A stretch of 21,054 nt of DNA, taken from a virus. This document shows positions 4,690 to 12,215 of the stretch, piece after piece. Within the stretch, counting starts at the first letter, position 1. Every line of letters begins with the position of its first letter. The translations under genes were made by a program, and so were the position numbers. The notes beneath the pieces were generated by a model. It saw only the letters and a program-made list of their open reading frames with translations, was not told the origin of the DNA and searched no databases. The stretch covers positions 1 through 21,054 of IMG/VR virus record IMGVR_UViG_3300031857_001660; one strand, written 5' to 3'.

Positions 4690-6204
4690 CTAGTAATACC
4701 CTTCACGACGGTGGCTCTTGAACCATTTCGTAGGCTCTGGCTCGTCAGTCGGAAGACGAATAAAACCACCTTGGCGAAAGCGAAGGAGGGCTAGAGTGGT
4801 AGAGTCAACCAAGTCGTCGTTGCTACCGGACGGGAAATCGTTGCACTCCTCAACGACCTCCCATGCCCACCTGCGGTCGGGCACCCAGACTATACCCGCA
4901 GCAAATAGGTCTGATACAGCATTTACTCTGCTGATCTTGTCTTGACCCTTACCCGGCGTGAACTCACTAATCGGCACGCCCATGCGCCGCATCTCTTGAT
5001 ACAGCGCCGCACCGTTGGATTTCTTCTCCACGATGAATGTGTCCGGGTTCCACTCCTTGTACTCCTCCAGCACGAGCGCCTTTAACTCTGGGAACTCCAG
5101 CCGCTGCTTGATCGAGTTCAGGAGGACGATGTTGTAGTTCTTAGTCTCCTCGTTGAAGAAAACCCCCCAAGTCGTCAAGGCGTTGTAGTCCGAGCGGTTA
5201 GTCTTCTCCTGAGCGGCGTCGAGCGACATGATGATGTGTTCGCACTGGGGCGGACTCTCTGCCTCCCACACCTGCCACCACTCACGTTTGATCAGCGCAC
5301 CCTCTTCCGAGGTCGGCTGCTGCATGTACTGAGCCTGCCAGTACCGCACATCCATGCCTGCCTTCTTAGCCAGTAGTTCTTCAATCGTCCAGAAGTCCGG
5401 CCAGAGCGGTTTCTCATTAAGAATCGCCGGGAACTCGACCACTTCCCACTGATCGGCACCTTCTTCACGCAGCATGTGATCTACGATCTTGCCGGTGAGG
5501 TCAGATTTGCTCCACCGCGTCATCACTACGATGATCGCGCCACCCGGCATTAGTCGTTGGACCGGTCCCGACTGGAACCATTCCCAAGCCGGTTCAAAAA
5601 CGTTTGCGCGACCTTGTTTAGCTTCCTGTTCTGAGTGGGGATCATCAATAATGAACAGATCAGCGCCTCGACCAGCAAGAGCACCGCCAACACCGATAGC
5701 AAAATACTCGCCGTTAAAATTAGTACCCCATCGAGAAGCAGATTTAGAGTCGGCCTGAAGCTCAACTTGAGGAAAAACATCATGGTAAAGCTCCGATCCC
5801 ACTAAGTTACGCACGCGCCGACCGAAGTTCACCGCAAGATCCGCAGTGTGAGACGCCATAATGACTTTTTTCTGCGGAAATTTGCCTAAAAACCACGCAG
5901 GAGCGAGGTAACTGATCATCTCTGACTTGCCATGACGCGGGGCGATGTTGACGATCACCCTTTTCTTCACGCCGTTAGCAATATCTTCAAAGATTGCAGC
6001 TAATTTCCGGTGATGGGGGCCAACTTTGTATCCCGGATACACATGATTGATGAAGTCTAAGAAGGAATCCTTGCCAACGGTACGAGTACGCTCGGCCTGA
6101 TACGTCTTTAGTAGCTCTAATGTGCGCCGTTTCTGCTCATCTGGCATGTTCGGCAGCGCCATACGCAGCGCCTTAAGCTTTTCAGGTGTAAGTTGGACGT
6201 TCAT
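4690..6204 (-). CDS. terL: Terminase large subunit (504 aa)
   Basis: ATP-driven DNA packaging motor and headful or cohesive-end nuclease. The ATPase domain has an atypical Walker A, APRHGKSE at residues 88-95, and Walker B LFIIDDPH with acidic D187/D188. A coupling motif VMTRW follows at 227-231. The RNase H-like nuclease domain shows the three acidic sites: SLDAAQ (D329), IVEKKSNG (E393) and NDDLVDS (D463, D464, D467). Length is normal for the family. I prefer the ATG at 6204 to a longer frame because it overlaps the upstream stop codon (ATGA). No good Shine-Dalgarno is seen, so translation is probably coupled to the zinc-ribbon gene. The portal gene follows after 10 bases. Confidence 0.96.
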   Translation of the reverse strand: MNVQLTPEKLKALRMALPNMPDEQKRRTLELLKTYQAERTRTVGKDSFLDFINHVYPGYKVGPHHRKLAAIFEDIANGVKKRVIVNIAPRHGKSEMISYLAPAWFLGKFPQKKVIMASHTADLAVNFGRRVRNLVGSELYHDVFPQVELQADSKSASRWGTNFNGEYFAIGVGGALAGRGADLFIIDDPHSEQEAKQGRANVFEPAWEWFQSGPVQRLMPGGAIIVVMTRWSKSDLTGKIVDHMLREEGADQWEVVEFPAILNEKPLWPDFWTIEELLAKKAGMDVRYWQAQYMQQPTSEEGALIKREWWQVWEAESPPQCEHIIMSLDAAQEKTNRSDYNALTTWGVFFNEETKNYNIVLLNSIKQRLEFPELKALVLEEYKEWNPDTFIVEKKSNGAALYQEMRRMGVPISEFTPGKGQDKISRVNAVSDLFAAGIVWVPDRRWAWEVVEECNDFPSGSNDDLVDSTTLALLRFRQGGFIRLPTDEPEPTKWFKSHRREGYY

Positions 6205-6398
6205 GCGGCAGGAATGTCGTCTATCGGAGCCCAAACTCCCGCTACTGGGAACAAACACTCTTCACAAAAAAGTCTGCCGTCTACCGCGAGATAAAAATTA
6301 GGCTGCTGGCAGTTACCGCAAGCCATGATTGCTACTTCTTCTTCAACTTCAACAGCCTTTTTACTCTTCTTGCCTTTAAATCCAACTATGTCACCCAT
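6201..6398 (-). CDS. Small zinc-ribbon protein between the terminase genes (65 aa)
   Basis: A basic/acidic N-terminal half (GFKGKKSKKAVEVEEEVA) is followed by CGNC and, 15 residues later, CEEC. This is a classic single zinc ribbon that binds nucleic acid or protein. It overlaps the upstream gene by 8 bases and terL by 4, so it is co-translated with the packaging genes. Only a weak GGGG ribosome-site candidate precedes the start. A packaging role is inferred from position alone; a transcription-related zinc ribbon cannot be excluded. Confidence 0.8.
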   Translation of the reverse strand: MGDIVGFKGKKSKKAVEVEEEVAIMACGNCQQPNFYLAVDGRLFCEECLFPVAGVWAPIDDIPAA

Positions 6399-7251: not shown

Positions 7252-7264
7252 CTGACACTGTCAG
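7252..7264. promoter_or_regulatory. Dyad operator site 1, CTGACACTGTCAG, overlapping a promoter -35
   Basis: Exact match to the window-wide motif CTGACNNNGTCAG with T and A flanks. It covers the expected -35 position of the promoter whose -10 box is at 7277-7282. A protein bound here would compete directly with RNA polymerase, or activate it by contact. Confidence 0.75.
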
Positions 7265-7282
7265 ACTCGAGTGTGGTATAAT
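7252..7282 (+). promoter_or_regulatory. Rightward promoter with extended -10 (TGGTATAAT)
   Basis: A consensus TATAAT at 7277-7282 is preceded by TGG, giving an extended -10 that can work with a weak -35. The -35 zone is occupied by the dyad operator; its CTGACA is 19 bases from the -10, one mismatch from TTGACA. Transcription is expected to start near 7289, at the foot of a leader hairpin, 66 nt before the ATG at 7355. Confidence 0.6.
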
Positions 7283-7288
7283 GGAATC

Positions 7289-7337
7289 ATGTTGGACGTA
7301 CCAACATCGTGTTACCCGCCACGGTCTGCGGGGTTTT
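7289..7337 (+). promoter_or_regulatory. Structured 5' leader: two hairpins, the second attenuator-like
   Basis: Right at the predicted transcription start, ATGTTGG (7289-7295) pairs perfectly with CCAACAT (7301-7307) around a 5-base loop. A second hairpin pairs CCCGC (7315-7319) with GCGGG (7328-7332) and is followed by GTTTT, as in a weak intrinsic terminator. The gene's Shine-Dalgarno follows at once. Attenuation or RNA protection are plausible. A start codon within the leader (ATG at 7289, in frame with the gene) is less likely because it would sit at the very 5' end. Confidence 0.4.
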
Positions 7338-7354
7338 GTGGAGATGTCACTACC

Positions 7355-8026
7355 ATGTCGAATGTATCTGAAAACGTTAAGTCTGTCCTCGCGTCGTCGG
7401 TCGTCGAGGGGTTCCGTTCTCTTGCCAAGGACGTCGGCGGCCACGTTCGCAGCGACCGCACCAAGTGGGCGAAGTATCGCGCCACGTTTGCGAAGTTGTC
7501 CGCAGACTTCCCGAGGTTGGATAACGGCGCGATCGACCGCGAGTCCGAGGCCTGTGAGGCTGCTCGTGAGGTGTTCATCGCTAACGCGATCCTGTCGCTG
7601 ACCGAGGGTTCGGAGTACAACCGAGAGTTGCATAGTGGTGCGGACGATATGTTCTACACCCCGAGCGAGGATCGACCGGCGAATTTCACCCTGACCGGAC
7701 GGAATGCCGTCTCGATGGATAAGGGCAGCCTCGCCAAGTTGCCTAACCTTGTGGACAACCCATTCAGCCTTCGTCGGTACGTCGAGGCCACGCGCAAGAC
7801 CGTGGACAACACTGCGACCAAGGCTTGGGGCCGGTTCTTTGAGGCTGACTTTGCCGAGAGCAAAGGCGGTCGCGGTGCTACCGCGTCGGTCGATGAGTGG
7901 TTGGATGGTCTCGCCAAACCGATGATCGCCAAACTGGGTGCGGCTCGGAAAGAGCAACGCAAGGTCGCCACGAACGACCGCGCGAAAAAGGCACTCGCCA
8001 ACTTCCGCAAGGAGTTGCTTGGTTGA
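7355..8026 (+). CDS. Early protein of unknown function (223 aa)
   Basis: A 223-residue, soluble, basic and alanine-rich protein starting MSNVSENVKSVLASSVVEGF. Most of it is predicted helical. The C-terminus (AARKEQRKVATNDRAKKALA) is strongly basic, which would suit nucleic-acid binding. No helix-turn-helix, zinc site or catalytic motif is recognised. I chose the ATG at 7355, with GGAG 11 bases upstream. Longer in-frame starts would begin upstream of, or exactly at, the predicted transcription start. It is the first rightward gene, under the operator-overlapped promoter, and its transcript ends at the terminator at 8131. Position alone makes it a candidate regulator or takeover protein. Confidence 0.8.
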   Translation: MSNVSENVKSVLASSVVEGFRSLAKDVGGHVRSDRTKWAKYRATFAKLSADFPRLDNGAIDRESEACEAAREVFIANAILSLTEGSEYNRELHSGADDMFYTPSEDRPANFTLTGRNAVSMDKGSLAKLPNLVDNPFSLRRYVEATRKTVDNTATKAWGRFFEADFAESKGGRGATASVDEWLDGLAKPMIAKLGAARKEQRKVATNDRAKKALANFRKELLG

Positions 8027-8061
8027 ACCCAACGGACGGGGCGGCGCAAGCCGCCCTAGTC

Positions 8062-8074
8062 CTGACACTGTCAG
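8062..8074. promoter_or_regulatory. Dyad operator site 2, CTGACACTGTCAG
   Basis: Exact motif copy lying 13 nt upstream of the ATG of the 12-codon ORF at 8088, directly before its GAGGA ribosome site. This is the same geometry as at 8940, 9476, 10095 and 14958. Confidence 0.75.
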
Positions 8075-8087
8075 CGAGGATAGTTTT

Positions 8088-8126
8088 ATGAGATGCGATC
8101 CTGAACAACTAGAATTCCCGTTCTAG
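8088..8126 (+). CDS. Candidate 12-residue peptide MRCDPEQLEFPF
   Basis: ATG at 8088, stop TAG at 8124-8126, immediately before the terminator. A GAGGA ribosome site lies 7 nt upstream of the ATG, and a dyad operator lies upstream of that. This operator / Shine-Dalgarno / ATG layout recurs at four undoubted genes, which is the main reason to take so short an ORF seriously. The acidic-aromatic end (EQLEFPF) faintly resembles short linear motifs that dock on the bacterial sliding clamp, but it does not fit the usual QL(S/D)LF consensus. It could also be only a leader that carries the operator. Function unknown. Confidence 0.45.
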   Translation: MRCDPEQLEFPF

Positions 8127-8130
8127 TCAC

Positions 8131-8165
8131 AGCCCCATCAGGCTCACGCTTGGTGGGGCTTTTTT
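8131..8165 (+). terminator. Strong rho-independent terminator
   Basis: AGCCCCATCA (8131-8140) pairs with TGGTGGGGCT (8151-8160), a 10-bp stem with one G-U pair and a 10-base loop. Six T residues follow (8160-8165). It closes the first rightward unit (7355-8126) and isolates it from the repeat-rich region beyond. Confidence 0.9.
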
Positions 8166-8179
8166 GCGTCCGCGCGAGA

Positions 8180-8228
8180 CCAGTTACTACGAAGCCAGTT
8201 CTCGATACCAGTTCTATGGAAACCAGTT
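8180..8228 (+). repeat. Four CCAGTT direct repeats (iteron-like)
   Basis: CCAGTT occurs at 8180-8185, 8195-8200, 8208-8213 and 8223-8228, with periods of 15, 13 and 15 bases, just after the terminator. Three of the four are followed by C or CT. The near-regular spacing suggests protein binding sites rather than coding repeats. Confidence 0.55.
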
Positions 8229-8239
8229 CCTAGGAAGAA

Positions 8240-8261
8240 GGGCTACGCGAATGGGCTACGC
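8240..8261 (+). repeat. Tandem GGGCTACGC repeat
   Basis: The nonamer GGGCTACGC is present at 8240-8248 and 8253-8261, a period of 13 bases. It lies between the CCAGTT repeats and the TGTTCCA cluster. Confidence 0.5.
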
Positions 8262-8301
8262 CAAAGCCCGAAGTCCAAAGGGAAAGGACAAGGTGCAAGC
8301 C

Positions 8302-8393
8302 TGTTCCAGACTTGTTCCACACGTGTTCCAAGAGCGTGGAACACGCAAGTCATTGAAGGACAAGGCAAAAACACCATTTGTTCCAATGTTCCA
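8302..8393 (+). repeat. TGTTCCA heptamer cluster, left part
   Basis: TGTTCCA occurs at 8302, 8313, 8324, 8379 and 8387, the first three exactly 11 bases apart, about one DNA turn. The third forms a 9-bp perfect inverted repeat (CGTGTTCCA, 8322-8330) with TGGAACACG at 8337-8345. This is the left half of an array continued in opposite orientation at 8502-8679. Confidence 0.7.
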
Positions 8394-8415
8394 CAGTTTC
8401 CGGAAGTGTACCAAT

Positions 8416-8428
8416 CTGACATTGTCAG
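8416..8428. promoter_or_regulatory. Dyad operator site 3, CTGACATTGTCAG, inside the repeat region
   Basis: Exact motif copy with T and A flanks. It lies between the two halves of the TGTTCCA/TGGAACA array, and no gene start is near. Its location argues for recognition as DNA rather than as a translational signal. Confidence 0.7.
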
Positions 8429-8501
8429 AACCATTCAAGGCAATCCGCAAGTTTGTAAACCTCGTTCTTCCAATCCCGCCATATATACTTTGGCAAAATC
8501 G

Positions 8502-8679
8502 TGGAACATGGAACTTCTTATATTATTATCTCTTTATAAAATAACTACTACTACTACGTTTTCTAGCAAAATCAAGCACTTGCAATTCCCCCTTACACAA
8601 TCAAACCTCGTTCCGCTGAAGAATAATACAAGTTTGATTTGTGGAACACGCTGGAACATCGGAACAATTTTGTGGAACA
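8502..8679 (-). repeat. TGGAACA heptamer cluster, right part (inverted copies)
   Basis: TGGAACA, the reverse complement of the left-part heptamer, occurs at 8502, 8642, 8652 and 8673, as well as at 8337. Near-matches lie at 8509 (TGGAACT) and 8660 (CGGAACA). Spacings of 10 and 21 bases at 8642-8673 again follow the helix turn. An AT-rich segment with a CTA trinucleotide run lies between 8512 and 8560. Confidence 0.7.
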
Positions 8680-8686
8680 CGCCGCT

Positions 8687-8699
8687 CTGACACTGTCAG
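8687..8699. promoter_or_regulatory. Dyad operator site 4, CTGACACTGTCAG, at the edge of the repeat array
   Basis: Exact motif copy with T and A flanks, 8 bases beyond the last TGGAACA heptamer. No start codon with a ribosome site follows it. Confidence 0.7.
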
Positions 8700-8788
8700 A
8701 CACAGCCAGAACTTACACAATCGTGACACGATTAAATTCTATCCCATCTTGTCACTGGACCAGCAAGACCATCAAAATCCAAAAAGTC

Positions 8789-8812
8789 TTTCACGCTTTT
8801 CACGCTTTCACG
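8789..8812 (+). repeat. Three TTTCACG repeats
   Basis: TTTCACG occurs at 8789-8795, 8798-8804 and 8806-8812, periods of 9 and 8 bases. It lies about 50 bases upstream of the promoter at 8864, where an upstream activator or initiator could bind. No coding explanation fits. Confidence 0.45.
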
Positions 8813-8863
8813 TATCGGCATTGAGTATCCCGCCGCACAAAGTCATCGCCAGCCCGTATCGCC

Positions 8864-8892
8864 TTGATTTATTTGTCAAGTTAGGTTATAAT
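8864..8892 (+). promoter_or_regulatory. Rightward promoter TTGATT-N17-TATAAT
   Basis: TTGATT at 8864-8869, a 17-base spacer and a perfect TATAAT at 8887-8892. Transcription should start near 8899, with a dyad operator about 40 nt downstream and the first ATG at 8966. It drives the cluster of small genes starting at 8966. The same -35 hexamer and spacing recur at 9992. Confidence 0.75.
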
Positions 8893-8939
8893 ATCTACTA
8901 GACTGAAAGAAGCGACGAAGCAAATACATCCACAACGTT

Positions 8940-8952
8940 CTGACACTGTCAG
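8940..8952. promoter_or_regulatory. Dyad operator site 5, CTGACACTGTCAG, in a 5' leader
   Basis: Exact motif copy with T and A flanks. It lies downstream of the predicted start of transcription and 13 nt before the ATG at 8966, directly against an AAGGAGG ribosome site. As RNA it could form a 5-bp stem with a 3-base loop; as DNA it could act as a roadblock operator. Confidence 0.75.
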
Positions 8953-8965
8953 AAGGAGGCGAGCG

Positions 8966-9175
8966 ATGATTAAGAAGTTGTGTAACCGATGCCATGCCGA
9001 GTTCGTCGAGGACGAGCGGGTAGTGCTTGGCTATTTGTCCTGTATGCCGTGTGGCGAGGAGCAGGCAAGGAAGAAGAAACACACGGTCGTCCCGTTGCAC
9101 AAGAGCAACTACATCGTTCCTGCCAACGCTGACGAGATCAGAGGCATCAACAACAAGGGAGGGTTTTACAGATGA
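8966..9175 (+). CDS. Small zinc-ribbon protein (69 aa)
   Basis: CNRC at residues 6-9 and CMPC at 26-29 form a clear four-cysteine zinc ribbon with a 16-residue connector. A Lys-rich patch (ARKKKHTVV) and a polar tail with NADEIRGINNKGG follow. Such ribbons in phages often bind nucleic acid or RNA polymerase, but no specific function is visible. AGGAGG lies 6 nt upstream of the ATG. It is the first gene behind the promoter at 8864 and ends in an ATGA overlap with the next gene. Confidence 0.85.
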   Translation: MIKKLCNRCHAEFVEDERVVLGYLSCMPCGEEQARKKKHTVVPLHKSNYIVPANADEIRGINNKGGFYR

Positions 9176-9372
9176 GTAAGTATGCGTATGTGCTGATGAA
9201 GGTGGATGAGGACAACGATGGGTATGACGTTGATTACCCAATCGAGGCAGCGTTCACCACGCTAGAAGCGGCAGAGAAGTATCGGGTGGAGTTGTATATC
9301 GACGACGAAGAGTCGGTGTACGAGATCATCAAGGTTCCGTTGATAAGCGCATTTGGTGAGGAGGTTGCATGA
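9172..9372 (+). CDS. Small acidic protein of unknown function (66 aa)
   Basis: An acidic 66-residue protein, KYAYVLMKVDEDNDGYDVDY then EAAFTTLEAAEKYRVELYID, with an alternating beta-alpha-beta look. The segment 'YPIEAAFTTLEAAEKY' resembles small proteins that decode a numeric input, but no family is recognised. The ATG overlaps the previous stop (ATGA), and the stop overlaps the next start (ATGA), so the three small genes are translationally coupled. Confidence 0.8.
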   Translation: MSKYAYVLMKVDEDNDGYDVDYPIEAAFTTLEAAEKYRVELYIDDEESVYEIIKVPLISAFGEEVA

Positions 9373-9479
9373 ACGAGCAGGAACTAAACCAAGCGGTGCG
9401 GCGTATCTATTTCTCCGCATTCCGTCACGGTTTCATGGCAGCCATGGTTGGATCAATCATCTATTACTTTTTTATCTGA
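9369..9479 (+). CDS. 36-residue single-pass membrane microprotein
   Basis: An ATG overlapping the previous stop (ATGA), preceded by AGGAGG with a 5-base gap, opens a 36-codon frame. The frame begins MNEQELNQAVRRIYFSAFRH and is followed by GFMAAMVGSIIYYFFI. The N-terminal half is polar with paired arginines; the C-terminal 16 residues are a hydrophobic membrane segment. The stop codon TGA is part of the dyad operator at 9476. Short phage proteins of this build can act as membrane toxins, pinholins, superinfection-exclusion factors or regulators of host membrane enzymes. None is indicated specifically. Too short for ordinary ORF cut-offs. Confidence 0.7.
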   Translation: MNEQELNQAVRRIYFSAFRHGFMAAMVGSIIYYFFI

Positions 9480-9488
9480 CATTGTCAG
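9476..9488. promoter_or_regulatory. Dyad operator site 6, CTGACATTGTCAG, containing the previous stop codon
   Basis: Exact motif copy with T and A flanks. The TGA within it terminates the 36-codon gene. It ends 11 nt before the ATG at 9500, abutting the AGGAGG ribosome site. Confidence 0.75.
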
Positions 9489-9499
9489 AGGAGGCGAAG

Positions 9500-9973
9500 A
9501 TGGACACGAACATTCAAGACGACATGAACGACTGGTGGGCTGAACACAAGCGCCAAGAGGAAGAGATTCAACAGTTAGAACTTAAACTAACCACGATACG
9601 AGAGGAGATCGCACGCATGAAGGTGACAAGGCAGGATGGTTTTACTCTGTCTGACGGCACGTGCCTGCAAGGCTACGTCAAGGCTGACTTCAATGAGTTA
9701 GTCGAGACATTCGGTGAGCCGCTAGAAGGTGATGGCTACAAGACTCAGGCTGAATGGGTATTGCTGTTCTCGCTGCCTGATGGTGACGAGGTCATCGCTA
9801 CGATCTACGACTGGAAGAAGGATTGCTCCATCTACGAGGTCGAGGAGTGGAACATCGGCGGGCATGACCCACGTGCGCCTGAACTGGTGATTGATTACCT
9901 GAACTACGCTCGTGACATGGAGGAGCGGCAGGTGACAGTGTGGAACGAGAACGTACACGGCAAGATTGCCTAA
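9500..9973 (+). CDS. Conserved phage protein of unknown function with N-terminal coiled coil (157 aa)
   Basis: Residues ~15-42 (KRQEEEIQQLELKLTTIREE) form a short coiled coil. The rest is a compact alpha/beta domain with phrases FNELVETFGEPLEGDGYKTQ and AEWVLLFSLPDGDEVIATIY. I recall this second part as a recurrent small domain in viral and plasmid hypothetical proteins, without known function. The ATG at 9500 is chosen because AGGAGG lies 6 nt upstream. A longer open frame from 9353 would overlap the microprotein and the operator and reads as non-protein-like. Confidence 0.75.
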   Translation: MDTNIQDDMNDWWAEHKRQEEEIQQLELKLTTIREEIARMKVTRQDGFTLSDGTCLQGYVKADFNELVETFGEPLEGDGYKTQAEWVLLFSLPDGDEVIATIYDWKKDCSIYEVEEWNIGGHDPRAPELVIDYLNYARDMEERQVTVWNENVHGKIA

Positions 9974-9991
9974 CGCGGATAGGCCAAGCCA

Positions 9992-10020
9992 TTGATTAAG
10001 TTGTTAAGTTGTGTTATACT
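9992..10020 (+). promoter_or_regulatory. Rightward promoter TTGATT-N17-TATACT
   Basis: TTGATT at 9992-9997, a 17-base spacer and TATACT at 10015-10020. It has the same -35 and spacing as the promoter at 8864. Start of transcription is expected near 10027. It heads the MoxR/VWA cassette (10120 onward). Confidence 0.7.
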
Positions 10021-10024
10021 ATTC

Positions 10025-10066
10025 TTGTCATGTGGTAGTGACAAAGGGCGGGACTGCCAACCGCCC
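10025..10066 (+). promoter_or_regulatory. Leader with two inverted repeats upstream of the MoxR/VWA cassette
   Basis: TTGTCA (10025-10030) and TGACAA (10039-10044) form an inverted repeat around the predicted start of transcription. Next, GGGCGG (10046-10051) pairs with CCGCCC (10061-10066) as a 6-bp GC stem with a 9-base loop. No T run follows, so it is not a terminator. The segment GGTAGTGACA (10034-10043) also occurs on the opposite strand in the leader at 7344-7353. A regulator site or RNA-stabilising structure is possible. Confidence 0.4.
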
Positions 10067-10094
10067 ATCTATCAAGCAATCAATACACAAGACG

Positions 10095-10107
10095 CTGACA
10101 GCGTCAG
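10095..10107. promoter_or_regulatory. Dyad operator site 7, CTGACAGCGTCAG, fused to the ribosome site
   Basis: Exact motif arms with a different centre (AGC). The last bases of the operator form part of AGGAGG, and the ATG at 10120 follows after 12 nt. Confidence 0.75.
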
Positions 10108-10119
10108 GAGGCTAGTCGA

Positions 10120-11031
10120 ATGAACGAGTCAACGAATCCAATCTTGAAGAAACCCGATCACGTGGTGTCGCTTGCAACGTCAGGCATCCTCGTGAACGTC
10201 GAGGTCAGTGTGTGGACTGGTACGAAACAGGATAGAGAAATCTCTGACGAGGTCACACAAGCCAAGAAGGCAGATCGTGACGCAGGTCGGTTCGTTAAGA
10301 AGTTGCTTGCCGGTGTGGCCGAACACAAGGCTGTGCTGAATGATCGCCAAACTTGGTACAACTTTGTGGAGCGTGAGACTTATCCGTGGTCGGGTCGGTG
10401 GCGGTTCCTGCCAACGCAGCGCATCGTGGGCTTCATGAAGCAGGTCGAGGAGCGGCAAGCCAATACGCAGAATCTCAAGGACAAGTTCAGTCAGGTGTAC
10501 GCGACTGCCGTAGCCAACGAGGCGTTCGTGCAGGGTGACATGTTCAAAGAGAGTGATTACCCACCCGTCGATGAGGTCATGTCTTGTTTCAAAGTCCGTG
10601 TGTTCACGGCTGAAGTCCCTGTCGGTGACTTCCGTTGTCAGATAAGCAACGACCTAGCCAACGATCTGGCGCGGCACTACGAGAACCAAGCCAAGGAATT
10701 GGTGCAGGACATTTACCAGAAGCAGGTTGAGCAGATGGTTGATGTAATGAAGTCGCTTTCGCATTGTTGCGACACTGAAACTGTCATGGAGGACGGGCAA
10801 CTGAAGGTCAAGCGGCGCAAGTTGTACGACACCACACTGCAACGAGCGCAAGAACTGTGTGAGACATTCAAGGAATTCAATGTGACGCAGGACACTCGAT
10901 TGGAACAAGCTCGTGCTGAACTTGAACGTGTGGTATCGGGATTGAGTATTGAAACTCTACGCAACAGCGACACCACCCGTGTCGTCGTCAAAGAGAGCGT
11001 CGATGACATCATGAAGAAGTTTGGCTTCTGA
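10120..11031 (+). CDS. Helical protein of unknown function, first gene of the MoxR/VWA cassette (303 aa)
   Basis: A soluble 303-residue protein. Residues 1-35 look beta-rich (VSLATSGILVNVEVSVWTGT). About 45-110 is basic and helical, with a WYNFVERETYPWSGRWRFLP stretch. From 180 onward it is almost all helix with coiled-coil character (ENQAKELVQDIYQKQVEQMV, RLEQARAELERVV). No enzyme motif is seen. It lies directly upstream of a MoxR-type ATPase and a VWA/metallopeptidase, an arrangement in which the third partner is often a substrate or adaptor of the ATPase. Its stop codon lies inside the operator at 11028. Function unknown. Confidence 0.8.
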   Translation: MNESTNPILKKPDHVVSLATSGILVNVEVSVWTGTKQDREISDEVTQAKKADRDAGRFVKKLLAGVAEHKAVLNDRQTWYNFVERETYPWSGRWRFLPTQRIVGFMKQVEERQANTQNLKDKFSQVYATAVANEAFVQGDMFKESDYPPVDEVMSCFKVRVFTAEVPVGDFRCQISNDLANDLARHYENQAKELVQDIYQKQVEQMVDVMKSLSHCCDTETVMEDGQLKVKRRKLYDTTLQRAQELCETFKEFNVTQDTRLEQARAELERVVSGLSIETLRNSDTTRVVVKESVDDIMKKFGF

Positions 11032-11040
11032 CACTGTCAG
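11028..11040. promoter_or_regulatory. Dyad operator site 8, CTGACACTGTCAG, overlapping a stop codon
   Basis: Exact motif copy. Its TGA is the stop codon of the 303-residue gene. It lies 43 nt before the ATG of the MoxR ATPase, farther than at the other gene starts. An AT-rich perfect inverted repeat TTTAAT-TC-ATTAAA (11053-11066) lies between. Confidence 0.75.
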
Positions 11041-11052
11041 AGTTTGGTTTTA

Positions 11053-11066
11053 TTTAATTCATTAAA
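11053..11066. repeat. AT-rich 14-bp inverted repeat before the MoxR gene
   Basis: TTTAAT and ATTAAA are perfect complements around TC, placed 3 bases before the GGAGG site region of the gene at 11084. It could be a second small operator or simply keep the ribosome site unstructured. Confidence 0.35.
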
Positions 11067-11083
11067 CGTGGAGGCTGAGTGTT

Positions 11084-12181
11084 ATGGCTATCAAACGTGA
11101 AACTGTGAACTTCAACAACGCGATCAGCGTGATGGAAGCGTTCCGTCTGGTCATGGTCAATGGCGACAGGAAGACTTATTACTTCCAAGGCGAACCCGGC
11201 ATCGGCAAATCGTCTATTCATTACATGCTACGTGATGCACTAGGTGATGATGAGTATGACCACATCTATCTTGACTGGTCGCTGATCGAGTACGGCGAGA
11301 TTAGTTTACGTGCGCCGAATCGTGACACTGGCGAGTTGGAGTTATACATCTCGTCGTTGCTCAAGCCGAAGTCCAACAAGAAGAAACTGATCATGATCGA
11401 CGAGTTGGACAAGGGCGACAAGTTGCTACAGAAGTTGGGTACGCGGTTGTTGCTTGATCATGTTGTCGGCAGTTGGAAGTTACCGGCTGGCTCTCGTGTC
11501 TTTGCAACGGGTAATTTAGTTACGGATGGTGTGGGCAATTCGATCCTCGCTCATACATCCAATCGCATCACGACGATGAACATCCGCAAGCCCACGGTGG
11601 ACGAGTGGTTGGCATGGGCAAGCAACGCAGGGCTGTCGTCTGAGTTGAGAACATTCGTAGCGATGACACCGTCAGTCATGGCGAGTTACACGGATGGCAT
11701 CCGTCCTGAAGACAACGCGCATGTGTTCTTCCCTGTTCATCGGACGAAGCAGTTCGCATCACCACGTTCATTGGCAGCGTGTGATCCTGACATTATCAAT
11801 CGTCACAAGTTGGGAACCTCGCTCACCATGGCGGCATTGGCCGGTACGGTAGGTGCTGCGACTGCACATCTGATGTCGGCTGTACTTTCGCTGAGCGATG
11901 AGATCGTGCTGACGGCGGATGTTCTTGCTGATCCTGACGGTGTCAGAGTGCCAGAGAAACAGGCTGCACTGTTACAGATGATGTTCAATGCGATTGATAC
12001 GCTGCAAACGCAGGACGAGTTGAGCAAGTTCATGCGGTTCCTTGATCGCACGAAGTCGGCCGAGTTGCAGTCGGTGTTCTTCACCATGGCGATGGCAAGC
12101 AAGCGACTGTCACCTATTGCAACAAAGAATCAGAAGGTGGCCGAGTGGCTTGCGGCAGGTAACTACAAGTTGCTGACTTGA
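11084..12181 (+). CDS. MoxR-type AAA+ ATPase (365 aa)
   Basis: Walker A GEPGIGKS at residues 36-43, Walker B LIMIDE at 102-107, sensor-1 ATGN at 141-144 and an SNR at 159-161 as probable arginine finger. This order and spacing are those of MoxR/RavA-like AAA+ proteins, which work as chaperone-like remodelers with a VWA-domain partner. The C-terminal ~190 residues are helical and less typical. GGAGG lies 8 nt before the ATG. The gene carries an exact copy of the dyad operator at 11934 and a one-mismatch copy at 11663. Its partner is probably the VWA protein encoded next. Confidence 0.88.
   Translation: MAIKRETVNFNNAISVMEAFRLVMVNGDRKTYYFQGEPGIGKSSIHYMLRDALGDDEYDHIYLDWSLIEYGEISLRAPNRDTGELELYISSLLKPKSNKKKLIMIDELDKGDKLLQKLGTRLLLDHVVGSWKLPAGSRVFATGNLVTDGVGNSILAHTSNRITTMNIRKPTVDEWLAWASNAGLSSELRTFVAMTPSVMASYTDGIRPEDNAHVFFPVHRTKQFASPRSLAACDPDIINRHKLGTSLTMAALAGTVGAATAHLMSAVLSLSDEIVLTADVLADPDGVRVPEKQAALLQMMFNAIDTLQTQDELSKFMRFLDRTKSAELQSVFFTMAMASKRLSPIATKNQKVAEWLAAGNYKLLT
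11934..11946. promoter_or_regulatory. Dyad operator site 9, CTGACGGTGTCAG, inside the MoxR gene
   Basis: Exact arms with centre GGT. It encodes D-G-V-R in frame (codons GAC GGT GTC AGA). An additional imperfect copy, ATGACACCGTCAG, lies at 11663-11675 in another reading frame. Confidence 0.65.
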
Positions 12182-12194
12182 TTGGTCTAATCAA
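12178..12194 (+). repeat. Small inverted repeat between the MoxR and VWA genes
   Basis: TTGATT pairs with AATCAA around GGTCT, overlapping the MoxR stop codon. There is no T run, and the distance to the following TATAC is too short for a promoter. It may be a weak RNA processing or spacing hairpin. Confidence 0.3.
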
Positions 12195-12215
12195 ATCTTA
12201 TACGGAGGCATAGTC

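Follow-up and report, generated by a model that had tools for sequence, protein, structure and literature searches.

Why should ten copies of one heptamer crowd into the gap between two divergent phage operons, and what reads them? The window, by which we mean the whole 21,054-bp virus record analysed here, carries such a gap: leftward lie genes for terminase, portal and other structural proteins, and rightward those for a 303-aa protein, a MoxR ATPase, a VWA/metallopeptidase-like protein and DUF3310. The block at 8166–8900 is likely gene-free, the long open reading frames there being mechanical listings. An initial annotation had called it a candidate origin read by a phage initiator or a segregation protein, and its inventory is exact: TGTTCCA starts at 8302, 8313, 8324, 8379 and 8387 and TGGAACA at 8337, 8502, 8642, 8652 and 8673, all ten inside the block and spanning 378 bp, with the first three exactly 11 bp apart. 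Composition predicts 0.047 heptamers in 378 bp, in agreement with the earlier figure of about 0.05, and 2000 dinucleotide shuffles of the block gave a mean of 0.13 and a maximum of only 3. Overlapping registers of TGTTCCA/TGGAACA aside, no other 7-mer of the window clusters comparably. The near-matches TGGAACT (8509) and CGGAACA (8660) complete the arrays, and such variants recur in relatives. The element and its surroundings are laid out as follows.

4690–6258, minus strand: terminase large subunit (protein search); the structural operon runs left from the element.
8131–8160, plus strand: terminator-like hairpin, the left boundary of the element, present in the related genome G001 too.
8302–8330, plus strand: left array, three TGTTCCA at exact 11-bp spacing; most relatives have 2–4 direct copies.
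8337–8343, minus strand: inverted heptamer closing the left array; convergent spacings of 13 and 22–23 bp are preferred in 93 elements.
8346–8358, minus strand: degenerate IHF-like site CAAGTCATTGAAG (alignment and IHF scan), which in close relatives is a perfect YAANNNNTTGATW.
8379–8393, plus strand: core left pair TGTTCCAATGTTCCA, its copies 8 bp apart; no relative in the alignment deviates from it.
8394–8501, no strand: inner 108-bp loop between the inverted pairs, its length in the 103–109 class, containing a conserved CGCA-rich motif, here CCGCAAGTTTGTAAA.
8502–8515, minus strand: core right pair TGGAACA TGGAACT, the second copy with one mismatch (exact search and alignment).
8517–8560, no strand: AT-rich candidate unwinding element, 80% AT at 8520–8559, ending in (CTA)4 at 8545–8556, which reads as TAG repeats on the other strand.
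8570–8582, plus strand: IHF consensus site AATCAAGCACTTG (IHF scan), its position conserved in the alignment.
8642–8679, minus strand: right array, TGGAACA at 8642, 8652 and 8673 plus the variant CGGAACA at 8660 (exact search and alignment).
8864–8892, plus strand: promoter-like TTGATT-17-TATAAT directed into the early operon and retained in close relatives.
10120–12181, plus strand: first long rightward early genes (303-aa protein, MoxR-like ATPase), which served as queries for relatives.

The two orientations had been described as largely segregating to opposite sides of the AT-rich segment. This holds in part: the copy at 8337 is inverted within the left array, and that at 8502 lies to the left of the AT-rich segment. 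Two dyad operators had also been seen interleaved with the heptamers, and two copies of the palindrome TCTGACAnTGTCAGA (CTGACAnTGTCAG, CTGAC dyads) do lie in the block. They belong to a separate repeat, with 12 copies at 7252–14958, which is missing in more distant relatives that retain the heptamers. Copies often stand directly upstream of Shine-Dalgarno sequences and start codons, or of a TATAAT box (7252), and G001 has 11, all in one 9-kb segment of its 60-kb genome, whereas the more distant G008 has none. The palindrome looks like the operator of a regional regulator. Between the terminator and the heptamers, at 8175–8229, are four imperfect copies of CCAGTTCTA with a 14–15 bp period, a repeat also found in G001 and as a single copy in the distant clade; its variability may be responsible for assembly breaks nearby. 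A 33-bp stretch at 8381–8413 matches a site near the integrase gene of many enterobacterial F-type plasmids (E 8e-4). This match is not conserved in relatives, and we set the plasmid matches aside because they amount to a single stretch at a site that lacks the heptamer array.

If the repeats form a functional element, they should be kept in related phages, as the initial annotation had also held for an origin. A near match to the window was absent from 50,697 phage records; by terminase, the nearest were phage 023Pt_psg01, DSL-LC04 and the pelagiphages HTVC027P and HTVC023P, at 47–53% identity. Cultured relatives by terminase lack TGTTCCA arrays, and some have other repeat clusters in comparable gaps. 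Clustered 7-mers near the terminase/early boundary include TGGCACA (023Pt_psg01), GTCATAC (Planktothrix phage Pag-Yong1) and AAGCTTG (HTVC027P), with coordinates in complete terminase relatives of L141 13575–13790, L144 26126–26480 and L140 16872–17210; possibly they are equivalent origins with changed iterons.

The picture differs among relatives identified through the protein encoded at 10120–11031. At about 90% and at 53% identity in this protein, relatives retain both the array and its spacing wherever the region is covered, and the pair TGTTCCAATGTTCCA is invariant in their alignment, although the 53% group has no CTGAC dyads. We assembled a locus set from these earlier loci, a scan with the 15-mer TGTTCCAATGTTCCA, many of whose matches (about 80, on a rough estimate) may be due to chance, and a stricter inverted-pair pattern. 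Real arrays are present in at least 162 loci, and 150 of the 162 share proteins with the window's phage family. The strict pattern has at least 120 matches in IMG/VR as against six in 84,980 bacterial species genomes, where the estimated chance expectation is below 0.001. The loci follow a common layout: a left array, the direct pair TGTTCCAATGTTCCA, 95–128 bp, the inverted pair TGGAACATTGGAACA, an AT-rich or trinucleotide tract, and a right array. The ten repeats belong to an element of about 400 bases that is nearly unchanged over some 80 phage lineages, and both heptamers and phasing are conserved. In the part of the literature covered, we found nothing relevant on the heptamer TGTTCCA.

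Spacing statistics from 93 non-redundant elements, with 943 heptamers, define a syntax for this layout. Between neighbours on one strand the commonest distance is 8 bp (197 cases), followed by 9–12 and 19–21 bp; convergent neighbours peak at 13, 22–23, 33–35 and 42 bp, and divergent ones at 42–44 bp. The heptamer flanks are low in information, and the variants most often tolerated are TGTTCCG, CGTTCCA and TGTTCTA. The inner gap between the inverted pairs falls into classes of about 95–100, 103–109 and 113–120 bp, the window's being 108 bp, with a periodicity of about 10.5–11 bp (R = 0.46, nominal p ~1e-7 in a circular test over 78 lineages that ignores their relatedness). Such helical quantisation points to proteins that sit on duplex DNA and have to face one another. 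It also argues against an RNA element, for which Rfam gave nothing above chance; the long stem seen on folding arises from the inverted pair. Alphaproteobacterial LexA recognises GTTC-N7-GTTC, and we rejected it as the reader because this site would explain the 11-bp triple but leave the prevailing 8-bp spacing unexplained. Many elements carry, within the loop and about 65 bp from the left pair, a conserved motif, TTTTcGCAgTGyAA. Multiple short iterons, helically phased in a defined arrangement, are what origins of the P4/SaPI type contain.

We then compared 82 oriented non-redundant elements with the rest of the same loci, a comparison that ignores phylogeny. IHF consensus sites number 76 in 57 of the 82 elements, against 3.5±1.8 in shuffles, and their density is 2.42/kb inside and 0.087/kb outside (28-fold). 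Perfect trinucleotide tracts (43, in 36 of 82) are about 80-fold enriched, at 1.37/kb versus 0.017/kb in the flanks, and in 22 of 23 cases the C-containing units (CTA, CTT) are on one strand with TAG/AAG opposite, a bias that forms a DnaA-trio-like pattern (DnaA-trio per PMC10797057). Exact DnaA boxes are 9-fold enriched (0.159/kb versus 0.018/kb), with ten in eight of the 82 elements, one or two each. The window has the IHF site at 8570 and the (CTA)4 at 8545, and an AT-rich candidate unwinding region lies beside its iterons, as in P4/SaPI-type origins. It has no exact DnaA box TTATCCACA, let alone the cluster of a DnaA-type oriC, and we agree with the initial annotation that the heptamer is not a DnaA box. 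GC skew, named there as a check, does not place the origin elsewhere: in the near-complete genomes G001, G008 and G025 the cumulative minimum is offset from the element by +0.5 to +2.0 kb. Because operons diverge at the element, gene orientation confounds this measure, and the skew agrees with an origin without proving one.

Which protein might act at the element? The window is a fragment without initiator genes, and the data on initiators come from relatives. A self-loading initiator helicase (DUF927/D5/VapE) is encoded in G001, G008, G025, G034 and the prophages described below. G001 encodes DNA polymerase A, an SNF2 helicase, a PD-(D/E)XK nuclease and a 942-aa DUF927 protein, whose family matches SCCmec Cch (5dgk, E 3e-14) and SaPIbov1 Rep (8tch, E 2e-11) in profile searches. 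The predicted model of the 942-aa protein, with a mean pLDDT of 70 and usable at the domain level only, has a primase-polymerase-like N-terminus and a C-terminal winged-helix-like fold, and a fold search with it returned the same two proteins as best solved folds (1e-15 to 1e-17). Pseudomonas phage Rollin encodes a DUF927 primase-helicase homologue (L250 32945–35917; 27% identity, 95% coverage) and has no TGTTCCA arrays.

A second candidate is HTH103, a 103-aa helix-turn-helix protein whose gene precedes the DUF927 gene by about 70 bp in those relatives that were checked and which weakly matches XRE-type regulators. Records that bear its gene and cover the divergent gap carry heptamer arrays (G001, G008, G025, G031), while the G034 contig breaks there. 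The helix-turn-helix of HTH103 is 87% conserved, and the C-terminus (residues 831–942) is the helicase's least conserved domain, while the heptamer is invariant. Judging from these sequences, the heptamer reader may be either the helicase C-terminus or HTH103.

The distance between element and helicase gene varies among replicons. In the window's family it is about 16–20 kb. In three related Acidobacteria prophages, the element begins about 5–15 bp after a TOPRIM-VapE gene (~914–921 aa); in a Pseudoruegeria prophage it lies about 80 bp after a Prim-Pol-DUF5906 gene, near a tyrosine integrase; and in virus contig L078 it is about 26 bp downstream of a VapE-domain gene. In L235, a D5_N/DUF5906 gene is 1.8 kb away. 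Prophages in Bryobacterales and a related Acidobacteria MAG (L244, L246, L248) carry the same origin-like element, and their genes include serine recombinase-like, ParB-N6-methyltransferase and terminase-like ones. HTH103 was not found in the Acidobacteria and Pseudoruegeria prophages, even by profile. Since the heptamer stays the same while the helicases that go with it belong to different families, it is not obvious that one helicase could be the sole reader. We tentatively raise the possibility, which we think somewhat doubtful, that phages and prophages from several bacterial phyla share a single origin code, in which TGTTCCA arrays keep their inverted-pair core and phasing whether the replicon's primase-helicase is of the DUF927, TOPRIM-VapE or Prim-Pol-DUF5906 family. 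If true, it would be a portable origin module, or would have a common reader apart from the helicase; candidates would be a conserved host protein or, for the window's family, HTH103.

The proposal of a candidate origin read by a phage initiator is supported by the conservation, spacing syntax and helical phasing of the arrays, the enrichment of IHF sites, trinucleotide tracts and DnaA boxes, the skew minimum and the linkage to initiator-type helicases. We consider it very probable that an aquatic tailed phage of about 60 kb has its replication origin at 8302–8679, a segment that includes the AT-rich and IHF sites, and that this origin works like those of P4 and the SaPIs; its replication activity and its melting site are what we infer. 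In such an origin the heptamers would serve as iterons on which initiator protomers line up in two arrays of opposite orientation, with the direct pair at 8379 and the inverted pair at 8502 as anchors. IHF would bend the DNA, and the fixed helical phasing would join the two arrays. The phage's self-loading primase-helicase, made up of an AEP-like primase, a DUF927 helicase and a winged-helix C-terminus, could then form two rings on the arrays and melt the adjacent AT-rich/trinucleotide tract, with forks starting in both directions.

Two other readings of the locus are improbable, to a similar degree. The heptamers could be sites for the terminase small subunit, with IHF bending, in a cos/pac packaging site beside the terminase genes; in lambda cosB, R sites occur together with IHF. 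The element does lie between the packaging and replication modules, and a number of contigs, L007, L010, L014 and G034, have an end no more than a few hundred bp away. These ends vary among near-identical phages, however, most loci span the element, and the CCAGTTCTA repeats just to its left could break assemblies. We dropped the idea that contig ends are genome ends, as the pattern scan yields loci whose edges are set by storage (L073 versus L008) and G008 is short of about 775 bp at its break. Moreover, the element follows a primase/helicase gene in the prophages and L078, several kb from terminase in the Acidobacteria prophages, and enrichment of trinucleotide tracts and DnaA boxes is unexpected at a packaging site. 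In the second reading, the heptamers would be operators through which a master regulator controls both divergent operons, late and early. The divergent position, the conserved promoter at 8864 and terminator at 8131, and the weak resemblance of HTH103 to XRE-type regulators suit such a central control region. Repression, however, needs no pairs about 10 helical turns apart, no IHF sites and no AT/trinucleotide tracts; the prophage elements lie at the 3′ end of a helicase gene rather than at a divergent promoter, and the promoter here is about 200 bp outside the arrays.

An attachment site, with the heptamers as integrase arm sites and IHF sites around a core, is highly improbable. Arm-like arrays do flank a core with IHF sites, and the 33-bp plasmid match lies next to an integrase gene, but that match is specific to this window, no integrase was recognised among the ORFs of near-complete G001, and chromosomal elements are intact, not split into attL and attR, and beside primase rather than integrase. 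Equally remote is a parC/parS-like partition centromere, for despite helically phased iteron arrays and a heptamer that equals half of a Pseudomonas-type parS, the 16-bp parS palindrome is absent, and neither ParM, ParA or TubZ, in a non-exhaustive look at the G001 ORFs, nor a plasmid-like maintenance module was noticed, which also leaves the segregation protein once suggested as reader unsupported.

The element is most probably a P4/SaPI-type iteron origin, belonging to a large phage family of which most is uncultured. As the origins of most environmental tailed phages are unknown, it would give this family an origin searchable by pattern, and it ties the family to the SaPI/SCCmec-type initiator helicase, hitherto known from islands. 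The occurrence of one iteron with different primase-helicases raises the question of how origin specificity moves between replicons.

How does the element compare with known origins? Like iteron plasmid and oriC-type origins, it has an IHF site between repeats and AT-rich tract, and its TAG/AAG repeats fit a DnaA-trio-like pattern (PMC10797057); unlike them, the window has no DnaA box, the heptamer is a different sequence, and no plasmid Rep protein was found. The likeness to SaPI Rep and SCCmec Cch is one of helicase type and iteron layout: a DUF927 self-loading helicase and an origin of several short iterons. SaPI Rep, to which Cch (DUF927) is related, binds iterons directly downstream of its own gene through its C-terminal domain, apparently as two hexamers (PMC7581432), and in the prophages and L078 the element likewise lies directly behind the helicase gene. 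SaPI and SCCmec, by contrast, are Gram-positive islands, whereas the element belongs to tailed phages known mostly from metagenomes, its primase is fused to the helicase, and in the window's family the helicase gene is far from the element.

The annotated repeats of P4 are TGTTCACC and close variants. In ori they are spaced by 10, 11, 22, 43 and 10 bp; crr, which unlike ori lies just 3′ of alpha, has a direct pair with 9-bp spacing. P4 ori/crr and the element share short iterons with a TGTTC core, direct spacing of 9–11 bp, and inverted copies about two and four helical turns away, and P4 alpha is also a fused primase-helicase with a winged-helix DNA-binding domain (PMC4234260). The P4 type 1 repeat TGTTCACC itself is not matched, as the core alone is shared and the repeat ends in CACC in P4 and in CCA here. 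P4 has separate ori and crr instead of a single element of about 400 bp, the order of its 22/43-bp junctions is mirrored, the helicase of the relatives here is of the DUF927 type, and the scan applied to the elements found neither IHF consensus sites nor trinucleotide tracts in P4. Because the TGTTC core and the two- and four-turn spacings recur, but mirrored, our claim is that P4 and the element probably work in the same way, rather than that their common descent is proven.
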